Assembly (NCBI RefSeq): GCF_003391055.1
Contig: NZ_QUAJ01000001.1
Coordinates: 1-64,000, forward strand
Source of the DNA: Psychrilyobacter piezotolerans
GTDB lineage: Bacteria; Fusobacteriota; Fusobacteriia; Fusobacteriales; Fusobacteriaceae
Direction: 5' to 3'
Length of the DNA: 64,000 bases
Of the stretch, positions 1,957 through 51,038 are shown one piece after another. The first letter of the stretch is position 1. Each line of letters opens with the position of its first letter. A model generated the notes under the pieces. That model worked only from the letters and a program-made list of their open reading frames with translations, searched no databases and was not told the origin of the DNA. The translations under genes were made by a program, and so were the position numbers.

Positions 1957-2079
1957 ATTTTTCTCTCCCTTAAACTTTTTATATAAATTAAAATCTATAA
2001 ACCTTTGTCACGAATTACACGAATTAAGAAAATTTATCAACACAGAGACTCAGAGTTCACTGAGATAAGTCTTTTTTTG

Positions 2080-2525
2080 TCGCAGATTACACAGATTCAC
2101 TCAGATTTTGCATAACCACTCTTTCTATTTCTAAACTTTTATTACCAAAATTAATTATGATACCGATTTTTTTTCCTGTAGCCTTAAGATAATTTGCTAT
2201 TTGAGCTTTATGAACTTCAATTATTTTTGAAGTACATTTTAATTCTAATATTATCTTATCTTCTACAATTATGTCAGCTATATAATCACCAATAATTTTA
2301 TTTCTAAAACTTATTTTAATTGGCTCTTGTTGTCTTGATTTCAGATTTTTTTCTTCAAATAATATCATTAAAGCATTTTCATATACTTTTTCTAAAAATC
2401 CAGTTCCTAACTCTCTGTGCACTTCCATAGCTAAACCAATAATTTCATAAGATAATTCTTTATATAAAAATTCTTTCATATTTATCACTCCATAAATAAT
2501 CTGCGTCAGTCTGCGTAATCTGCGA
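2080..2525. repeat. Inverted repeats framing the GxxExxY gene
   Basis: The left copy at about 2080-2110 (TCGCAGATTACACAGATT plus CACTCAGATT) and the right copy at about 2493-2525 (AATCTGCGTCAGTCTGCG plus TAATCTGCGAC) are approximate reverse complements, about 32 nt each. They enclose the gene exactly, and the left copy contains its stop codon. This resembles the terminal inverted repeats of a small mobile unit. No target-site duplication was confirmed by eye. Confidence 0.6.
2087..2479 (-). CDS. GxxExxY protein (PDDEXK-like nuclease fold)
   Basis: 130 aa from the ATG preceded by GGAG; an in-frame GTG lies three codons upstream. The naming motif is in HRELGTGFLEKVYENAL (GFLEKVY = GxxExxY). 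A D...ELK stretch (DYIADIIVEDKIILELK, about residues 68-84) fits a degenerate PDDEXK nuclease core. The family is known for scattered distribution; its function is not established. The last codons (NLSESV, stop) are encoded inside a CAGATTACACAGATT-type repeat, and an inverted copy lies just upstream of the start (2493-2525). It sits between the fusion-protein gene and the permease gene, where an ATPase gene would be expected. Nuclease activity is inference. Confidence 0.85.
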   Translation of the reverse strand: MKEFLYKELSYEIIGLAMEVHRELGTGFLEKVYENALMILFEEKNLKSRQQEPIKISFRNKIIGDYIADIIVEDKIILELKCTSKIIEVHKAQIANYLKATGKKIGIIINFGNKSLEIERVVMQNLSESV

Positions 2526-2610
2526 CTAAATCTTTTTAATCTTTTTTATCAGTTTGGTGTTCATTGGTGGCTAAATTTTTTATTGTTTTTTTCGTGACTA
2601 ATCTTTTTCT

Positions 2611-3810: not shown

Positions 3811-4369
3811 ATTCATCTCCTAAATATCTAAAACTTTTTTAATTTACTAATAAAATCTTCACTCCTTTAGTACAAAGAAATCCTTTTTTGCCACCAATCT
3901 ACACTAATTTATAAACTTTTATTGCTATGGCACAGAAGTTTTTATTTTTTTGTTTGAAGCGAAGTTTATAGTCGTTGAGCTTCAGCTGTACTGTTCCTAC
4001 AGTGACAATCGTGTATTACTTATTAAGACAACTTATAAACCTTCTTGATCTTCTTTGGTTCGTTTCTTGGATCAAGCTAAGAAATGAACCCGTATTAAAG
4101 AGGGACTCTTTAGAACTATTCCCTTTACGGAGTTTCGCGAATATTCAGATTAGCTTTCTAATTTAAAAGCTAATCATGAAATGTGACCGCTGGGACACCA
4201 AATTTTTGTTTATAAGAGAAAGACAGCTCCGCTGTCTTTCTCTTAACTTTTTGGATTTCAAACCCATAAAATATAAAATCCTGTTTTTTCGTGACCATTG
4301 GTGTTTATTGGTGACTAAGTTTTTTTCTTCGTGTGCCTCAGTGTTCTCTTTTCTCCGTGATTAAGTTTC
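3811..4369. repeat. Structured repeat module between tolC and adaptor genes
   Basis: No gene. It holds a CCACCAATCTACACTAATT-type repeat (3891-3912), then a nearly complete module: P1 3961-4044 (arms GAAGTTTATAGTCGT and TTATAAACCTTC), P2 arms GGTTCGTTTCTT and AAGAAATGAACC (4058-4089), P4 AAAGAG-GGA-CTCTTT (4097-4111), a GATTAGCTTT hairpin (4148-4175), P5 (4214-4244), and an inverted CATTGGTG-type repeat (about 4290-4320). Confidence 0.8.
4214..4244. terminator. 14-bp hairpin P5, terminator-like
   Basis: AAGAGAAAGACAGC, loop TCC, GCTGTCTTTCTCTT, a perfect 14-bp stem followed by AACTTTTTGG on the plus strand. It lies 3' of the minus-strand tolC gene. Confidence 0.5.
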
Positions 4370-7773: not shown

Positions 7774-8486
7774 TTTCTTTCCTCCTAATTTTTTTATCTT
7801 TTTCTTATATTTTTTATTTTTTTATATTTCAACAATCATTCTACCACAAATAATAATAAAAAAATTTGCATTTCTTAAATTTTTTTCTGCTGTCTGAAAT
7901 TTCAAATAAATTCCACATCCCAATACTAACTTATAATACAGGAGGCTAACCGCTTTTCATTTTACCACATTTTTATTCGACAACTAAAATTATTTTAAGT
8001 TTTGTTTAAGTTTTTTTCTTTACACTAAACTCTCTGAGAAATGAATCCGTATTAAAGAGGGAATCTTTAGAATCTTTTTTTTTGAAACAGATTACACAAA
8101 TTTAAAATCTAATTTTCACAGATTGTTCATCACTAAGAAATGAGATCACTAAGTTCCACAAAGATAAGATATTTCTTTTCAGGCTAAAAATCGAAGTTTA
8201 TAGTCGTTACACTTCAGCTGTACTGTTCCTACAATGACGATTGTGACTTACTTATTAAGACTACATATAAACCTTCTTGACCTTTTCCGTTACTTTTCTT
8301 TCCCACATTTAAAATTTATTCTATAAATTAGAGTAAACTTTAATAATCGTGGCATCAAGGTATCCCGTATCAAGGGCGGAATCCTTGGAACTTTCTTCCC
8401 TCCTTTTATGGTTCCCATCACATTTAAAATTTATTCTAAAGTTAGAATCAATTTTAATATTCGTGACACCACCAAACTTAGAATAT

Positions 8487-8517: not shown

Positions 8518-8938
8518 AACTTTTTGTTAAATTCAAACCCACTTTTTATTAAAATTCTTTTTCTTTTGATTTTTAAATTCCGAAGTTTATAGTCGTTACA
8601 CTTCAGCTGTACTGTTCCTACAATGACGATCGTGACTTACTACACTAAGACAATTATAAACCTTCTTGATCCTCTTTGGTTCTGTTTCTCAGATCAAGCT
8701 GAGAAATGAACCCGTATTAAAGAGGGACTCTTTAGAATTTGTTTCTGTCGCAGATTTTTCAGATTACTATATTTTGAATTTTGAATTTTGTACCTTCAAT
8801 ATTCACCTGTTGAATCATATCTGTATGATAAGCGATAGGATTCCTATGAATGATTTATTAACTTCAGATGAGAAATTTTAAAAAAATGATTATATATTGT
8901 CAATGAGGGGGATTTTATTAATAATTGACGATAAAAAA

Positions 8939-9364: not shown

Positions 9365-11327
<1,963 letters not shown>

Positions 11328-12044: not shown

Positions 12045-13170
12045 CTTGCCTCCAATTTTTATCAACAATACCTTAATACTTCTATGTTATATATATGTTT
12101 TTTTAGTTATTATTTTGTATTTTTGTCCCTGTCATTTTCAGTACATTTCAGTATACTAAAATTTCCATATTCTGTCAATATCACTCTTTAAAACTAAGGT
12201 AAAAATAATTTTTACCACAGACAACCCTAATGAATAAAATATTTTCAGAACCTTCTATCATACTCCACCTGTTTCCGCCTCTAGCCACATTCTAAATTAT
12301 TTTATTTCAAATAAAAGTAATTTAGATACTCGTGTCTCTGGCGGACAAAGCTCAGTTTTGTTTGTTTTTCTATTTGAAGTTTATAGTCGTTGAGCTTCAG
12401 CTGTACTGTTTCTACAATGACGATCGTGTATTACTCATTAAGACAACATGGTTTTAGCTTCGGTTTCTCTTTGACATCGTAATTTTCTTATAGCTATAAG
12501 AAAATTTCGTACTCGTCAATCGAGAAACCATAAAAAGGAAGAGTCATAAACCTTCTTGAACTTTTTCGTTAATTTTTCTTTCCCACATTTAAAATTAAGT
12601 TTTAAATACACTTAATTTTAATAATCGTGGCATCAAAGTAACTCGTATTAAAGGCGAAACCTTTAGAATCTAGTTTTTGTCGCAGATTACACAGATTTAC
12701 TCAGATTTTTAGAACCTTTCCCTGCCACCAATCTACACTAATTAAAGAATTAATGCTATTACACAGAAGTTTTTAGTATAATCCATAGAACGCGGATCTC
12801 TATCGAGATACACAGAAAATACTCTGATTTTCACAGATTAAAACACTTTTTTCTTGGTTATAACCTCTCTTTGGTTCTGACTTTAATCCCTTTTTCTAGA
12901 TGTTACCTAACTTCACAGTAAATATCTTACGAGTTTCGTCGTGCCCACCATGCCCGTCAGGCATCCCACTAAGAAACGGGGATCCACGGTCTCACTCTAT
13001 AACATCATTTAGAAAAAGTCTGCTTTTCTTTCCTCTATTTCTTTTTCAGAAAAAAAGTAAATGGAGCCAGTTAAGGATGGAATCCTTAGGTCTTTCTTTG
13101 CAACCAATCTACAGAAATCTTAATCTTTTGAACGCGGATCTCTTTGAGTTCCTACAATGAAGATTGTGAC
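12045..13170. repeat. 1.1-kb gap with repeat modules and a 26-nt palindrome
   Basis: No gene. P1 begins at 12376 and is interrupted by an extra hairpin: arms GGTTTCTC (12462-12469) and GAGAAACC (12532-12539) around the perfect palindrome at 12481-12506. P3 (12589-12621, arms TTAAAATTAAGT/ACTTAATTTTAA) and P4 (12650-12664) follow. Then come TCGCAGATTACACAGATT (about 12675), CCACCAATCTACACTAATT (about 12723), a GAACGCGGATCTC unit with its own small hairpin (about 12786-12812), a P2 variant with CTCTATTT/AAATGGAG arms (about 13031-13067) and P4 AAGGAT-GGA-ATCCTT (13073-13087). Confidence 0.75.
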
Positions 13171-14472: not shown

Positions 14473-14960
14473 CCTTACCCCCTATGTGCTCCGCACAAAT
14501 TAATAAGTAAGGGCAATTCATGAATCACCCTTTATAAATTTATTTTTTCCAGATTTTAAAAATCGAAGTTTATAGTCGTTGAGCTTCTGCAGTACTGTTT
14601 CTACAATGACGATTGTGACTTACTTTCTAAGACAAGATGGTTTTAGCTTCGGTTTCTCTTTGACATCGTAATTTTCTTATAGCTATAAGAAAATTTCGTA
14701 CTCGTCAATCGAGAAACCATAAAAAGGAAGAGTCAGAAACCTTCTTGAATTTTTCCGTTAGCTTTTCTTTCCCACATTTAAAATTTATTCTATAAATTAG
14801 AATAAATTTTAATAATCGTGGCATCAAGGTATCCCGTATCAAGGGCGGAATCCTTGGAACTTTCACTAAGTTCACAAAGTAAATCTATCAACGCAGAGAT
14901 TTCCTGAGCTTTCTCCGTGCACTTTCTTTTCCTCTGTGTATCTCCGTATCCAAGATTTTT
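14473..14960. repeat. Gap with REP-like palindrome and repeat module
   Basis: No gene. A GGGCAATTCATGAATCACCC palindrome lies at about 14511-14530. The module follows: P1 from 14563, interrupted by the same insertion hairpin as at 12.4 kb (GGTTTCTC 14651-14658, palindrome 14670-14695, GAGAAACC 14711-14718), then P3 with a perfect 14-bp stem (14778-14812) and P4 CAAGG...CCTTG (14840-14856). CAGAGATTTCC-type repeats lie at about 14890-14950. Confidence 0.75.
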
Positions 14961-16884: not shown

Positions 16885-17624
16885 CCCTTACGATTTTAAC
16901 CAAATATACAAAATTTTACAGTACAGGTAATTTATGAATCTACCCTCCATAAATCAACTTCTTTCTCTTTTGCCACCAATATACACTAAAGATATACGAG
17001 TATTAAATTTTCTTATAATTAGAAAAAAATTTAAATGTATAAATTTCTACTGCCCCACAGCACAGAAGCTTTTTCTTTGTCGCAGATTGCACAGATTTAC
17101 ACAGATTATAAACCATAGAACGCGGATCTCTCTCGAGATACACTGAAAACTCTCTAATTTACACGGATCTAAAAAAATTTCTTTTAGGTTAGAACCTTCT
17201 ACCTTTGACGCTGACTAGAATCTGACTTTTTTAATCTTGACTTTTATTTTGACTCTAAAAATGAAGTTTATAGTCGTCCCACTTCAGCAGTACTGTTTCT
17301 ACAACAACGATCGTGACAGAGGTTATTGCTTCGGCTTCTCTGTGACATCGTAATTTTCTTATAACTAGAATAAAATTTCGTACTCGTCAATCGAGAAACC
17401 ATAACGAGAAAGTATAAGAATCTTCTTACTTTTCTTTGGTTCGTTTCTTTTGCTCAGTCACATTTTAAATTAGATTTAGTTACATCTAATTTTAATAATC
17501 GTGAATCGTAAATGAACCCGTATCAAGGACGGAATCCTTGGAACCTTGTTCTAACTCCTTTTTCCTTCTCCCAAAGATCTACCTCCCCCACTTATACTAA
17601 GAGGGGGAACAAAAGGGGGAGTTA
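16885..17624. repeat. Repeat-filled gap 3' of cmk
   Basis: No gene. It has a degenerate GGTAATTTATGAATC palindrome (about 16926), CCACCAATATACACTAA (about 16975), a CACAGCACAGAAG unit, TCGCAGATTGCACAGATT (about 17077), GAACGCGGATCTC with CTCGAGATACACTG (about 17117-17145), P1 from 17263 with a degenerate insertion hairpin, P2 arms (GGTTCGTTT/AAATGAACC) enclosing P3 (17465-17495, arms TTAAATTAGAT/ATCTAATTTTAA), and P4 CAAGGA...TCCTTG (17524-17540). Confidence 0.75.
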
Positions 17625-22699: not shown

Positions 22700-23427
22700 A
22701 ATTATATTATTCCTCCTGATATTACTTTATCGTACGGGTAATTCATGAATTACCCCTCCGTAAAATCAATTTTTTTGTCACAGATTTCTCAGATTAAAAC
22801 AGAGGTTATGCGACTATTAATTTTTTCTATGATTAATAAAAAAAAAATGTATTAAAGCCTCTCAGCATAGAGTCTCAGAGTTAAATCTTTTGTTCTTGGT
22901 TAGAATCTTTTCTCTTTTGACGCAGACTAAAATCTGACTTTTCTTTAGGTTTTAAATTTCGAAGTTTATAGTCGTTTCGCTTCAGCAGCATTGTTCCTAC
23001 AATGACGATTGTGACTTACTCATTAAGACAATTATAAACCTTCTTGAACTTTTACGTCTCATTTTCTTTCATAGAGAAAAGAGACCCGTATCAAGGACGG
23101 AATCCTTGGAACCTTATCTTTTGACACAGATTACACAAATGGTATACAAGTATTAAATTTTCTTATAATTAGACAAAAATTTAAATGTATAATCTAAGTT
23201 TACACAGAGATTCACCGAGGTTAGGTTAGAGTTTCACTGAGCTTTCTTCGTTCACTCCGTATCCAAGTAACCCACAGAACATGGATCTCTTCGAGATACA
23301 CTGAAAACCTCTAATTTACACAGGGAAAATCTGCACCTTTCTGCGTAATCTGCGACTAAGTTTTTATTTTAGTTATTATTTATATTAATAGACTTAATTT
23401 TATCATGAAAGGAGGTTTTTTTCAATT
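22700..23427. repeat. Repeat-filled gap 3' of the phosphatase gene
   Basis: No gene. It contains a GGTAATTCATGAATTACC palindrome (about 22738), TCACAGATTTCTCAGATT (about 22776), P1 (22961-23043), P2 with compensated GTCTC...GAGAC arms (about 23054-23086), P4 CAAGGA...TCCTTG (23092-23108), GAACATGGATCTC with TCGAGATACACTG (about 23278-23305), and an inverted TAATCTGCGACTAAG copy (about 23345-23360). Confidence 0.75.
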
Positions 23428-29425: not shown

Positions 29426-29428
29426 TGG

Positions 29429-29490
29429 CACACAGATAACGCGGATTTTATCCACCCTAAATCTGTGCTATCCGCGTGCTATTATCATAT
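29429..29490. repeat. CACAGATAACGCGGATT-type inverted repeat
   Basis: GGCACACAGATAACGCGGAT is followed by an inverted, slightly altered copy (ATCTGTGCTATCCGCGTGCT). A second pair lies at about 29861-29960 on the other side of the small lipoprotein gene. Confidence 0.65.
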
Positions 29491-29751: not shown

Positions 29752-30060
29752 AATATAACCTCCTCATACGACAAAATCAATAATATATATATATAAATAA
29801 TGTTCTTTAAGAATGACAATATTCCTTCAAAAATAATATTTAATTTATAGGCTAAAAAATAGCACACTGATTCTAAAGCATACGCTGATTAAAAAGAGAT
29901 AGAAACAGATATAAAATTAATCTGCTCTTACCCATTTCGATCTGCGTTATCCGTGTGCTATATTTAAAAATAACCATGAAATTTTATATAATTAAAAATT
30001 AAAAGGGATTGATTACTCAATCCCTTTTACTATATTATATAAATATATTTAATTTTTTAC
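29752..30060. repeat. Gap with inverted TAGCACAC...GTGTGCTA repeat
   Basis: No gene. TAGCACACTGATTC (about 29867) and a downstream complement GTTATCCGTGTGCTA (about 29947-29960) bracket about 70 nt with CTGATT/AATCTGC half-sites. A terminator of the outer-membrane protein gene follows at 30001-30028. Confidence 0.55.
30001..30028 (-). terminator. Terminator of the outer-membrane protein gene
   Basis: A perfect 12-bp stem AAAAGGGATTGA / TCAATCCCTTTT with loop TTAC. On the minus strand it is followed by AATTTTTAATT. Confidence 0.85.
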
Positions 30061-50682: not shown

Positions 50683-51038
50683 TAACCTCAGTTTCCTCTG
50701 TGGCTCTGCGTTGAAAAGTCAGATTCTAAAGAGTCCCTCTTTAATACGGGTCTGTTTCGATTCACGAATATCAAAATTAGATTTACTTATATCTAATTTT
50801 AAATGTGATTGACACAAGAAATAGACGAAAGAAAGTCAAGAAGGTTTATAAATGTCTTAATAAGTAAGTCACAATCGTCATTGTAGAAACAGTATAGCTG
50901 AAGCATAACGACTATAAACTTCAATTAAAGTCAAAATCAAAGTCAGATTTTAGTCTGCGTCAAGGATTTTAGTTACTTGTTACTGATATTTAATTATTAG
51001 TGTAATTCGTGACAAAAAATAGAAAAATGAGGTAAAAA
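50683..51038. repeat. Repeat module in reverse orientation, 3' of the histidine kinase
   Basis: No gene. P4 (AAAGAG-TCC-CTCTTT, 50728-50742), P3 (AAAATTAGAT/ATCTAATTTT, 50773-50800) and P1 (50840-50922) occur in the opposite order and strand to all copies flanked by minus-strand genes. Here the neighbouring genes are on the plus strand. CTCTGCGTTG and GTGTAATTCGTGAC repeats lie at the ends. Confidence 0.8.

Follow-up and report, generated by a model that had tools for sequence, protein, structure and literature searches.

Near the start of the window, by which we mean the whole 64,000-nucleotide stretch of Psychrilyobacter piezotolerans DNA analysed here, lies a small gene of the GxxExxY family (2087-2479, minus strand). 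It begins at an ATG and encodes 130 amino acids, the open reading frame caller having placed a GTG start at 2488. The protein matches the profiles TIGR04256 (E=3e-41, 140.4 bits against a cut-off of 35) and PF13366, PDDEXK_3 (E=6e-39, 133.5 bits against a cut-off of 22). Both scores exceed the curated cut-offs, and the protein qualifies as a member of this family of predicted nucleases.

A preliminary description of this DNA had placed the gene between inverted repeats of about 32 nucleotides, the left of which was said to contain its last codons and stop, and both statements are confirmed here. The repeat on the 3' side of the gene (TTTGTCGCAGATTACACAGATTCACTCAGATT, 2076-2107, plus strand) supplies the final codons together with the TAA stop, and that on the 5' side (2498-2530, minus strand) reads TTTAGTCGCAGATTACGCAGACTGACGCAGATT on the minus strand. 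The two read inward, and both were defined from the sequence, a repeat survey of the organism's own genome and the comparison of copies. The whole element, consisting of repeat, gene and inverted repeat, covers about 455 bp (2076-2530, minus strand), and its DNA similarity to copies at other sites in two sister species is bounded by these ends. Every GxxExxY gene comes with a repeat "dialect" of its own (CGAAT, CAGATT, CAGGAT and others), the dialect classes being of our own definition. Outside the element the survey found a repeat of another dialect, CGAATT (TTTGTCACGAATTACACGAATT, 2004-2025, plus strand), for which the sequence offers a possible minus-strand partner (TTAGTCACGAAA, 2590-2601) that would make a nested pair. 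Within this outer pair lie a CAGAGA-dialect repeat from the survey (2037-2064, plus strand) and a CCAAT-dialect repeat read from the sequence (2555-2575, minus strand).

The same description listed scattered copies of the repeat, and those at 8081, 8744, 12676, 17076, 22774 and 23338 stand, with matches of 77-95% against a 99th percentile of 68% for random windows. In the survey they are solo repeats of the ACAGAT dialect (8081-8102 and 22774-22795) and of the CAGATT dialect (8744-8765, 77%; 12676-12697, 95%; 17076-17097), all on the plus strand, together with a CAGATT-dialect repeat in the opposite orientation (23338-23359, minus strand). A further ACAGAT solo repeat lies at 23120-23141 (plus strand). 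Of two supposed variants, the one near 29431 holds up, but as a gene-less pair of inward-facing repeats recognised in the sequence (GGCACACAGATAACGCGGATTTT ... AAATCTGTGCTATCCGCGTGC, 29428-29481), which is why its match reaches only 73%; the one at 29861 is weak (59%). Solo repeats of the CCAAT dialect occur at 10763-10785 (plus strand; survey) and also at 3887, 12721, 13097, 16969, 18299 and 20144, and those of the GACGCTGACT dialect, identified by pattern count and survey, at 10868-10893, 17204, 22916 and 59153 on the plus strand and at 50939 on the minus strand.

The survey covered 474 kb of the genome with seven dialect probes, the same probes reversed serving as control. The reversed probes made 6 raw hits, the seven dialect probes 137, which merge into 98 repeat sites; of these sites, 95 are outside open reading frames. 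In a sample of 74 solo repeats between tandem genes of this genome, orientation was against the neighbouring genes 60:14, a bias for which transcription, replication strand and loss of one end are all possible causes; an effect of replication strand could not be told apart from one of gene direction. An Rfam search of the window returned no known RNA families. Between 390 and 59370, the intergenic gaps are mosaics of many further repeat modules (GAAGTTTATAGTCGTTGAGCTTCAGC..., AAATGAACCCGTATTAAAG..., AAGAGAAAGACAGCT...), which are common to several gaps, keep one orientation and have no Rfam match (3926-4070, 8158-8302, 12365-12596, 14554-14785 and 22926-23070 are examples).

A predicted nuclease and its repeat boxes

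Structure prediction for the active site (AlphaFold, pLDDT 91.4) gave a PD-(D/E)XK fold with the motifs E...D...ExK...QxxxY, in keeping with the nuclease-like protein that had been proposed, and the features of a RecB-like PD-(D/E)XK enzyme (core fold, catalytic E, D and ExK, QxxxY) are all present. The best PDB matches are SSO0001 (4ic1), which we take to be a Cas4, the LHK and lambda exonucleases, and MGME1. A sequence search for a solved structure produced a single match at E=0.05, which was set aside. Residues E33, D72, E82, K84, Q96 and Y100 are conserved in 142-144 of 144 proteins, the first four being present in at least 143, and dN/dS is 0.04-0.30. The active site is invariant, the gene evolves under purifying selection, and the protein has been selected as an enzyme. 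On the evidence of the model, the window protein is predicted to be a RecB/Cas4-like PD-(D/E)XK nuclease, its activity and catalysis being inferred.

The protein shares its fold and motifs with RecB, Cas4 and lambda exonuclease, but differs from these nucleases in being a stand-alone domain of about 125 amino acids without helicase or Cas1/Cas2 partners. A CRISPR Cas4 was considered and rejected: the protein fails the curated Cas4 cut-offs, the best PADLOC match had an E of 2e-4 and lay below the Pfam cut-off, and one Cas1 was present among 80 neighbours. PADLOC found no defence system beyond this weak Cas4 similarity, and in the Pfam scan only PDDEXK_3 was above cut-off. The 80 neighbours scanned revealed no conserved function or operon, with 138 Pfam families among them and the commonest in 4 of the 80.

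Each end, about 30 bp long, is built from an 8-bp box (for example CACGAAT, CACAGATT or ACAGGAT) that occurs two or three times at intervals of 9-10 bp, a spacing of about one helical turn. Self-matches of 5-mers bear out this period, numbering 444 at lag 9 against 66 in the control and 353 at lag 10 against 38. When five ends were folded as hairpins, four gave 0 to -0.4 kcal/mol and one -2.9, and none clearly beat shuffles.

Repeat dialect tracks the protein tree across phyla and not the host. The similarity of flanks increases with protein identity, also in cross-phylum pairs alone, where the rank correlation of dialect with protein (rho 0.19) was equalled in 0 of 1000 permutations and control flanks 400 bp out gave rho 0.03. 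The nearest cross-phylum relative is of the same dialect in 50 of 75 cases, compared with 16.5 +/- 4.1 (maximum 35) after shuffling. The protein tree itself mixes phyla, with 54 phylum changes where the least possible is 24; this count is approximate, a few unassigned loci having been counted with the group to which the own genome belongs, and the dialect permutation test treats them as unknown.

Repeats and genes across genomes

The GxxExxY family spans most of the bacterial tree and extends to archaea, and the loci gathered here represent more than 20 phyla, some of the loci being archaeal. The first 80 came from one scan, picked by similarity to proteins of the own genome, and we scored the inverted repeat between each gene's own flanks. 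A score of at least 14 was reached by 68% of the 91 genes in these loci, against 2.2% of same-geometry windows from other parts of the loci, 2.9% after shuffling and 12.5% for mismatched pairs, and inspection of the 80 loci by eye agrees with the score. Adding loci from other genomes, reached by another route, gave a set of 132 genes, of which 68% have matching inverted end repeats and 85% inverted or direct ones; the figures are 3.5% and 7.1% for control open reading frames in the same loci, and 67.5% and 87.5% for the 40-gene follow-up set alone. Flanks of ParE toxin genes in gene-bearing genomes reached the score in 1 of 29 cases. Distant relatives (31-41% identical) on plasmid-like replicons of Bacteroides, Treponema, Bernardetia and Gemmatirosa have matched ends by eye. 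Genes sharing a genome are not independent, and many of the genomes are MAGs. The repeat-flanked GxxExxY gene is confirmed as a real and general observation.

The preliminary description would have been undermined by GxxExxY genes elsewhere having no link to such repeats, or by repeats equally common in genomes lacking the gene. The flank scores from more than 20 phyla dispose of the former, and genome counts speak against the latter. For two dialects in 192 Desulfobacterales genomes, presence of the gene goes with presence of repeats (odds ratio 5.1, p=1e-7), and the mean repeat count is 14.5 copies with the gene and 2.9 without. Repeats are found in 26 of the 88 Desulfobacterales genomes without a detected gene, and 9 of the 26 hold at least 5 copies, a point against a mobile element; lost genes or incomplete assemblies could account for these, an explanation that is untested. 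Of 41 Fusobacteriota relatives, 7 have the CAGATT pattern, and these 7 belong to the same, gene-bearing genus; the 33 genomes outside it all lack the pattern, the reversed pattern is found in none, and a second dialect behaves in the same way.

Most genomes have few copies of the gene. Of nine GxxExxY matches in the own genome, five are intact genes and the other four are partial or broken; the same-genus genome G006 has two intact and four partial. Copies that share a genome have mostly diverged (they are 45-68% identical to the window protein) and thus give no sign of a recent burst of whole elements, which counts against a mobile element. One contig of the own genome (C33) carries four intact GxxExxY genes of different dialects within 8 kb. 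Every one of them lies in a gap between sugar-nucleotide genes and is flanked by repeats of its own dialect, such as GTCACGAAT or GACGCAGACT. Polysaccharide and sugar-nucleotide clusters house several GxxExxY genes, both here (L010, G000:C33, 1-12000) and in relatives.

Gene-less copies lie between genes as single ends and as inward-facing pairs, with the same ends as the gene-bearing units, and solo repeats and gene-less pairs far outnumber genes. Among the adjacent repeats listed for Desulfobacterales, 35 face inward, 4 outward and 1 is tandem, with gaps of 28-266 bp plus three of gene size. Twenty examples read directly have an end, a short unrelated spacer and an end. These spacers are mutually different, unlike those of typical MITEs, and in places the repeats also flank other genes; each of these points weighs against a mobile element. 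At L229 (G157:C233, 3000-10300), toxin-antitoxin-like small gene pairs form a cassette-like array in which regular units of about 98 bp, made of paired CGAAT repeats, stand between the modules. At L228 (G196:C1:1080400-1090600), CGAAT repeats are interleaved with restriction-modification-like genes and run into the 5' ends of open reading frames, supplying start codons and N-termini such as MNTNKHE.

Copies at different sites

The window copy and two others (L017 and L025) belong to three species of the genus and lie at three unrelated sites. Their DNA is mostly 65-90% identical inside the unit and 10-30% outside, the switch falling at (T)AGTCGCAGATTAC on one side and at AATCTGCGAC(T/A)A on the other. 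Two further copies (L004 and L024) likewise lose similarity at the repeat ends. These alignments establish the gene and its ends as one unit, found at different places in the genomes of related species, and movement between sites is shown on this evolutionary timescale.

The gap between adaptor and permease genes that holds the window copy has a GxxExxY gene of a different dialect in G005 and another in G020. In G006 it contains no such gene. In G007 only one repeat end occupies it, and a full copy lies across the permease. No close pair of empty and filled alleles was found here, the gene-less gaps in G006 and G007 being too diverged, and no intra-species pair of empty and filled sites was found either, which also counts against a mobile element. 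Target-site duplications did not exceed the control (mean 4.29 nt vs 3.97 nt), another point against. Synonymous divergence (pS) in the element and the permease was 0.25 vs 0.62 between own genome and G007, 0.53 vs 0.53 between own genome and G006, and 0.56 vs 0.39 between G007 and G006; since these comparisons disagree, transfer timing appears mixed. A phage or plasmid vehicle is not the rule: GxxExxY was present in 0 of 50,697 phages of a phage collection, in 8 of 72,556 plasmids and at one locus in viral contigs.

Possible mechanisms and related systems

We put at roughly two in three the probability that the locus is a minimal mobile element, consisting of one PD-(D/E)XK nuclease gene of about 125 codons within inverted, box-built ends of about 30 bp; that the nuclease cuts and mobilises it is inferred. 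In the mechanism we propose, the nuclease would read boxes of its own dialect, one subunit per box and stacked on one face of the DNA. It would make its cuts at the element's ends or in same-dialect repeats already present, and host repair might then copy the element or its ends into the cut. Cutting followed by host repair would explain why target-site duplications are absent, why copies cluster and nest in repeat-rich gaps, why derivatives without the gene exist and why so many broken genes accompany intact ones. A point against the proposal is that it has to assume host repair, since PD-(D/E)XK enzymes hydrolyse DNA without rejoining it. The absent target-site duplications and varied spacers argue against a classical cut-and-paste transposon.

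Homing-like and domesticated, RAYT-like variants are not excluded and remain open. PD-(D/E)XK homing nucleases exist, and the lack of target-site duplication, the dialect matching and the four intact genes of different dialects within 8 kb would all suit a homing drive, in which the repeats are primarily targets: a gene-less chromosome is cut at same-dialect repeats, gene conversion copies the gene in, and the repeats spread by other means. Such a drive alone leaves unexplained the inward gene-less pairs with varied spacers and the higher repeat load of gene-bearing genomes, and we think it unlikely. We are slightly more sceptical still of a mostly stationary nuclease whose role, like the one proposed for RAYTs, is to maintain, edit or spread the repeats, with its gene moving by ordinary recombination between surrounding repeats. 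Purifying selection on the nuclease, the excess of solo repeats and gene-less pairs over genes and the low gene copy number in most genomes are what it would lead one to expect, but the unit lies at different sites with similarity stopping exactly at the repeat ends, and the mixtures of intact and partial matches (five and four in the own genome, two and four in G006) look like the birth and death of elements.

It could also be that the repeats are an independent element or a cassette-joining sequence and that GxxExxY is one cargo gene of many at recombination hot spots, as the paired CGAAT repeats separating toxin-antitoxin-like modules (L229) and those interleaved with restriction-modification-like genes (L228) would allow. 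This seems improbable, as GxxExxY genes are flanked far more often than other open reading frames or ParE toxins of such loci and genomes, and a dialect that follows the GxxExxY protein tree across phyla is not expected of a mere passenger. Hardly credible, in our estimate, is the reading without any mobile unit, in which the repeats are regulatory or terminator sequences around the gene, or the whole is a defence module. The preferred orientation of solo repeats among tandem genes relative to transcription (60:14) and the weak Cas4 similarity are set against the lack of an Rfam match, boxes that do not fold, random neighbour genes, matched inward pairs without a gene and the absence of any PADLOC system beyond that similarity.

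REP/RAYT systems combine a small gene with inverted short extragenic repeats, which occur as singles and inverted doublets and whose type co-varies with the protein; several dialects may share a genome, and there is lateral transfer among distant hosts (PMC3116915). The likeness to REP/RAYT that the preliminary description had drawn is supported as an analogy, the GxxExxY gene lying between inverted copies, with singlets and doublets elsewhere, co-variation with the protein, several dialects per genome and lateral transfer among distant hosts. GxxExxY is, however, a PD-(D/E)XK protein, whereas RAYT (TnpA-REP) is a Y1 HUH tyrosine transposase, and its repeats are periodic boxes of 9-10 bp rather than palindromic hairpins; further differences are the varying doublet spacers and the spread over more than 20 phyla including archaea. 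With non-palindromic repeats and an enzyme other than a RAYT, the system is related to REP/RAYT by analogy and not by membership, and the element would be a counterpart built of unrelated parts.

Inverted ends around one gene and gene-less derivatives recall insertion sequences and MITEs, and, as in DDE insertion sequences, the inverted ends appear to delimit the mobile unit, the similarity of copies stopping at the repeats. The element differs from these in its size of about 455 bp, its lack of a DDE transposase and of target-site duplication, and its ends made of tandem boxes, and from IS200/IS605 in having neither a TnpA HUH transposase nor subterminal hairpins. By eye, the repeats also lack the attC consensus of integron cassettes. 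Rpn or YhgA-like proteins (PF04754) are likewise small PD-(D/E)XK proteins, linked to recombination and formerly annotated as transposases (PMC5350276). The window protein has no PF04754 match in Pfam even at E=10. We know of no Rpn protein located between cognate repeats.

The "multicopy nucleotide sequences" of Geobacter and Pelobacter are described, in the main texts of the two papers concerned, as families of direct or inverted short intergenic repeats, several per gap, with non-random insertion (PMC2996986, PMC2700814). Their function is unknown. They resemble the GxxExxY repeats as intergenic families with several members in a gap and differ in that those main texts name no partner gene; some GxxExxY-type repeats may already be among them. 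In the literature searched, GxxExxY received passing mentions only. No published link between the family and repeats was found, subscription papers, most preprints and supplements being outside the search, and a text search for the repeat words found no relevant bacterial paper.

A wider claim is possible, although we hold it at somewhat less than even odds: that these elements, at about 450 bp among the smallest known, make up an unrecognised class of autonomous transposable elements that has spread through bacteria and archaea of more than 20 phyla. Their movement would then depend on a stand-alone Cas4/RecB-like PD-(D/E)XK nuclease that recognises tandem boxes, and several of the most frequent intergenic repeats still unexplained in environmental genomes would derive from them. 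If the locus is a mobile element, a widespread "conserved hypothetical" family would gain a function, and the origin of short intergenic repeat families across environmental genomes would be explained. The dialect boxes set against protein sequence offer a testable enzyme-repeat code with many natural variants. If the nuclease drives the spread, it would represent a new enzymatic way of moving small mobile DNA, and the family would provide a compact natural set of sequence-reading nucleases.

DUF559 (PF04480), a second small PD-(D/E)XK family taken as a control, adjoins C/G-rich palindromes, for example CCTCCCCC..GGGGGAGG, at loci L287, L268, L278, L275, L266, L285 and L291. Such a palindrome was present in at least one flank of 13 of 21 DUF559 genes and in both flanks of 5, and the same test gave 0 of 27 for ParE and 0 of 47 for GxxExxY genes. 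With its REP-like palindromic repeats, DUF559 looks like a second pairing of nuclease and repeat; it may have palindromic repeats of its own, hinting at a general nuclease-repeat principle.
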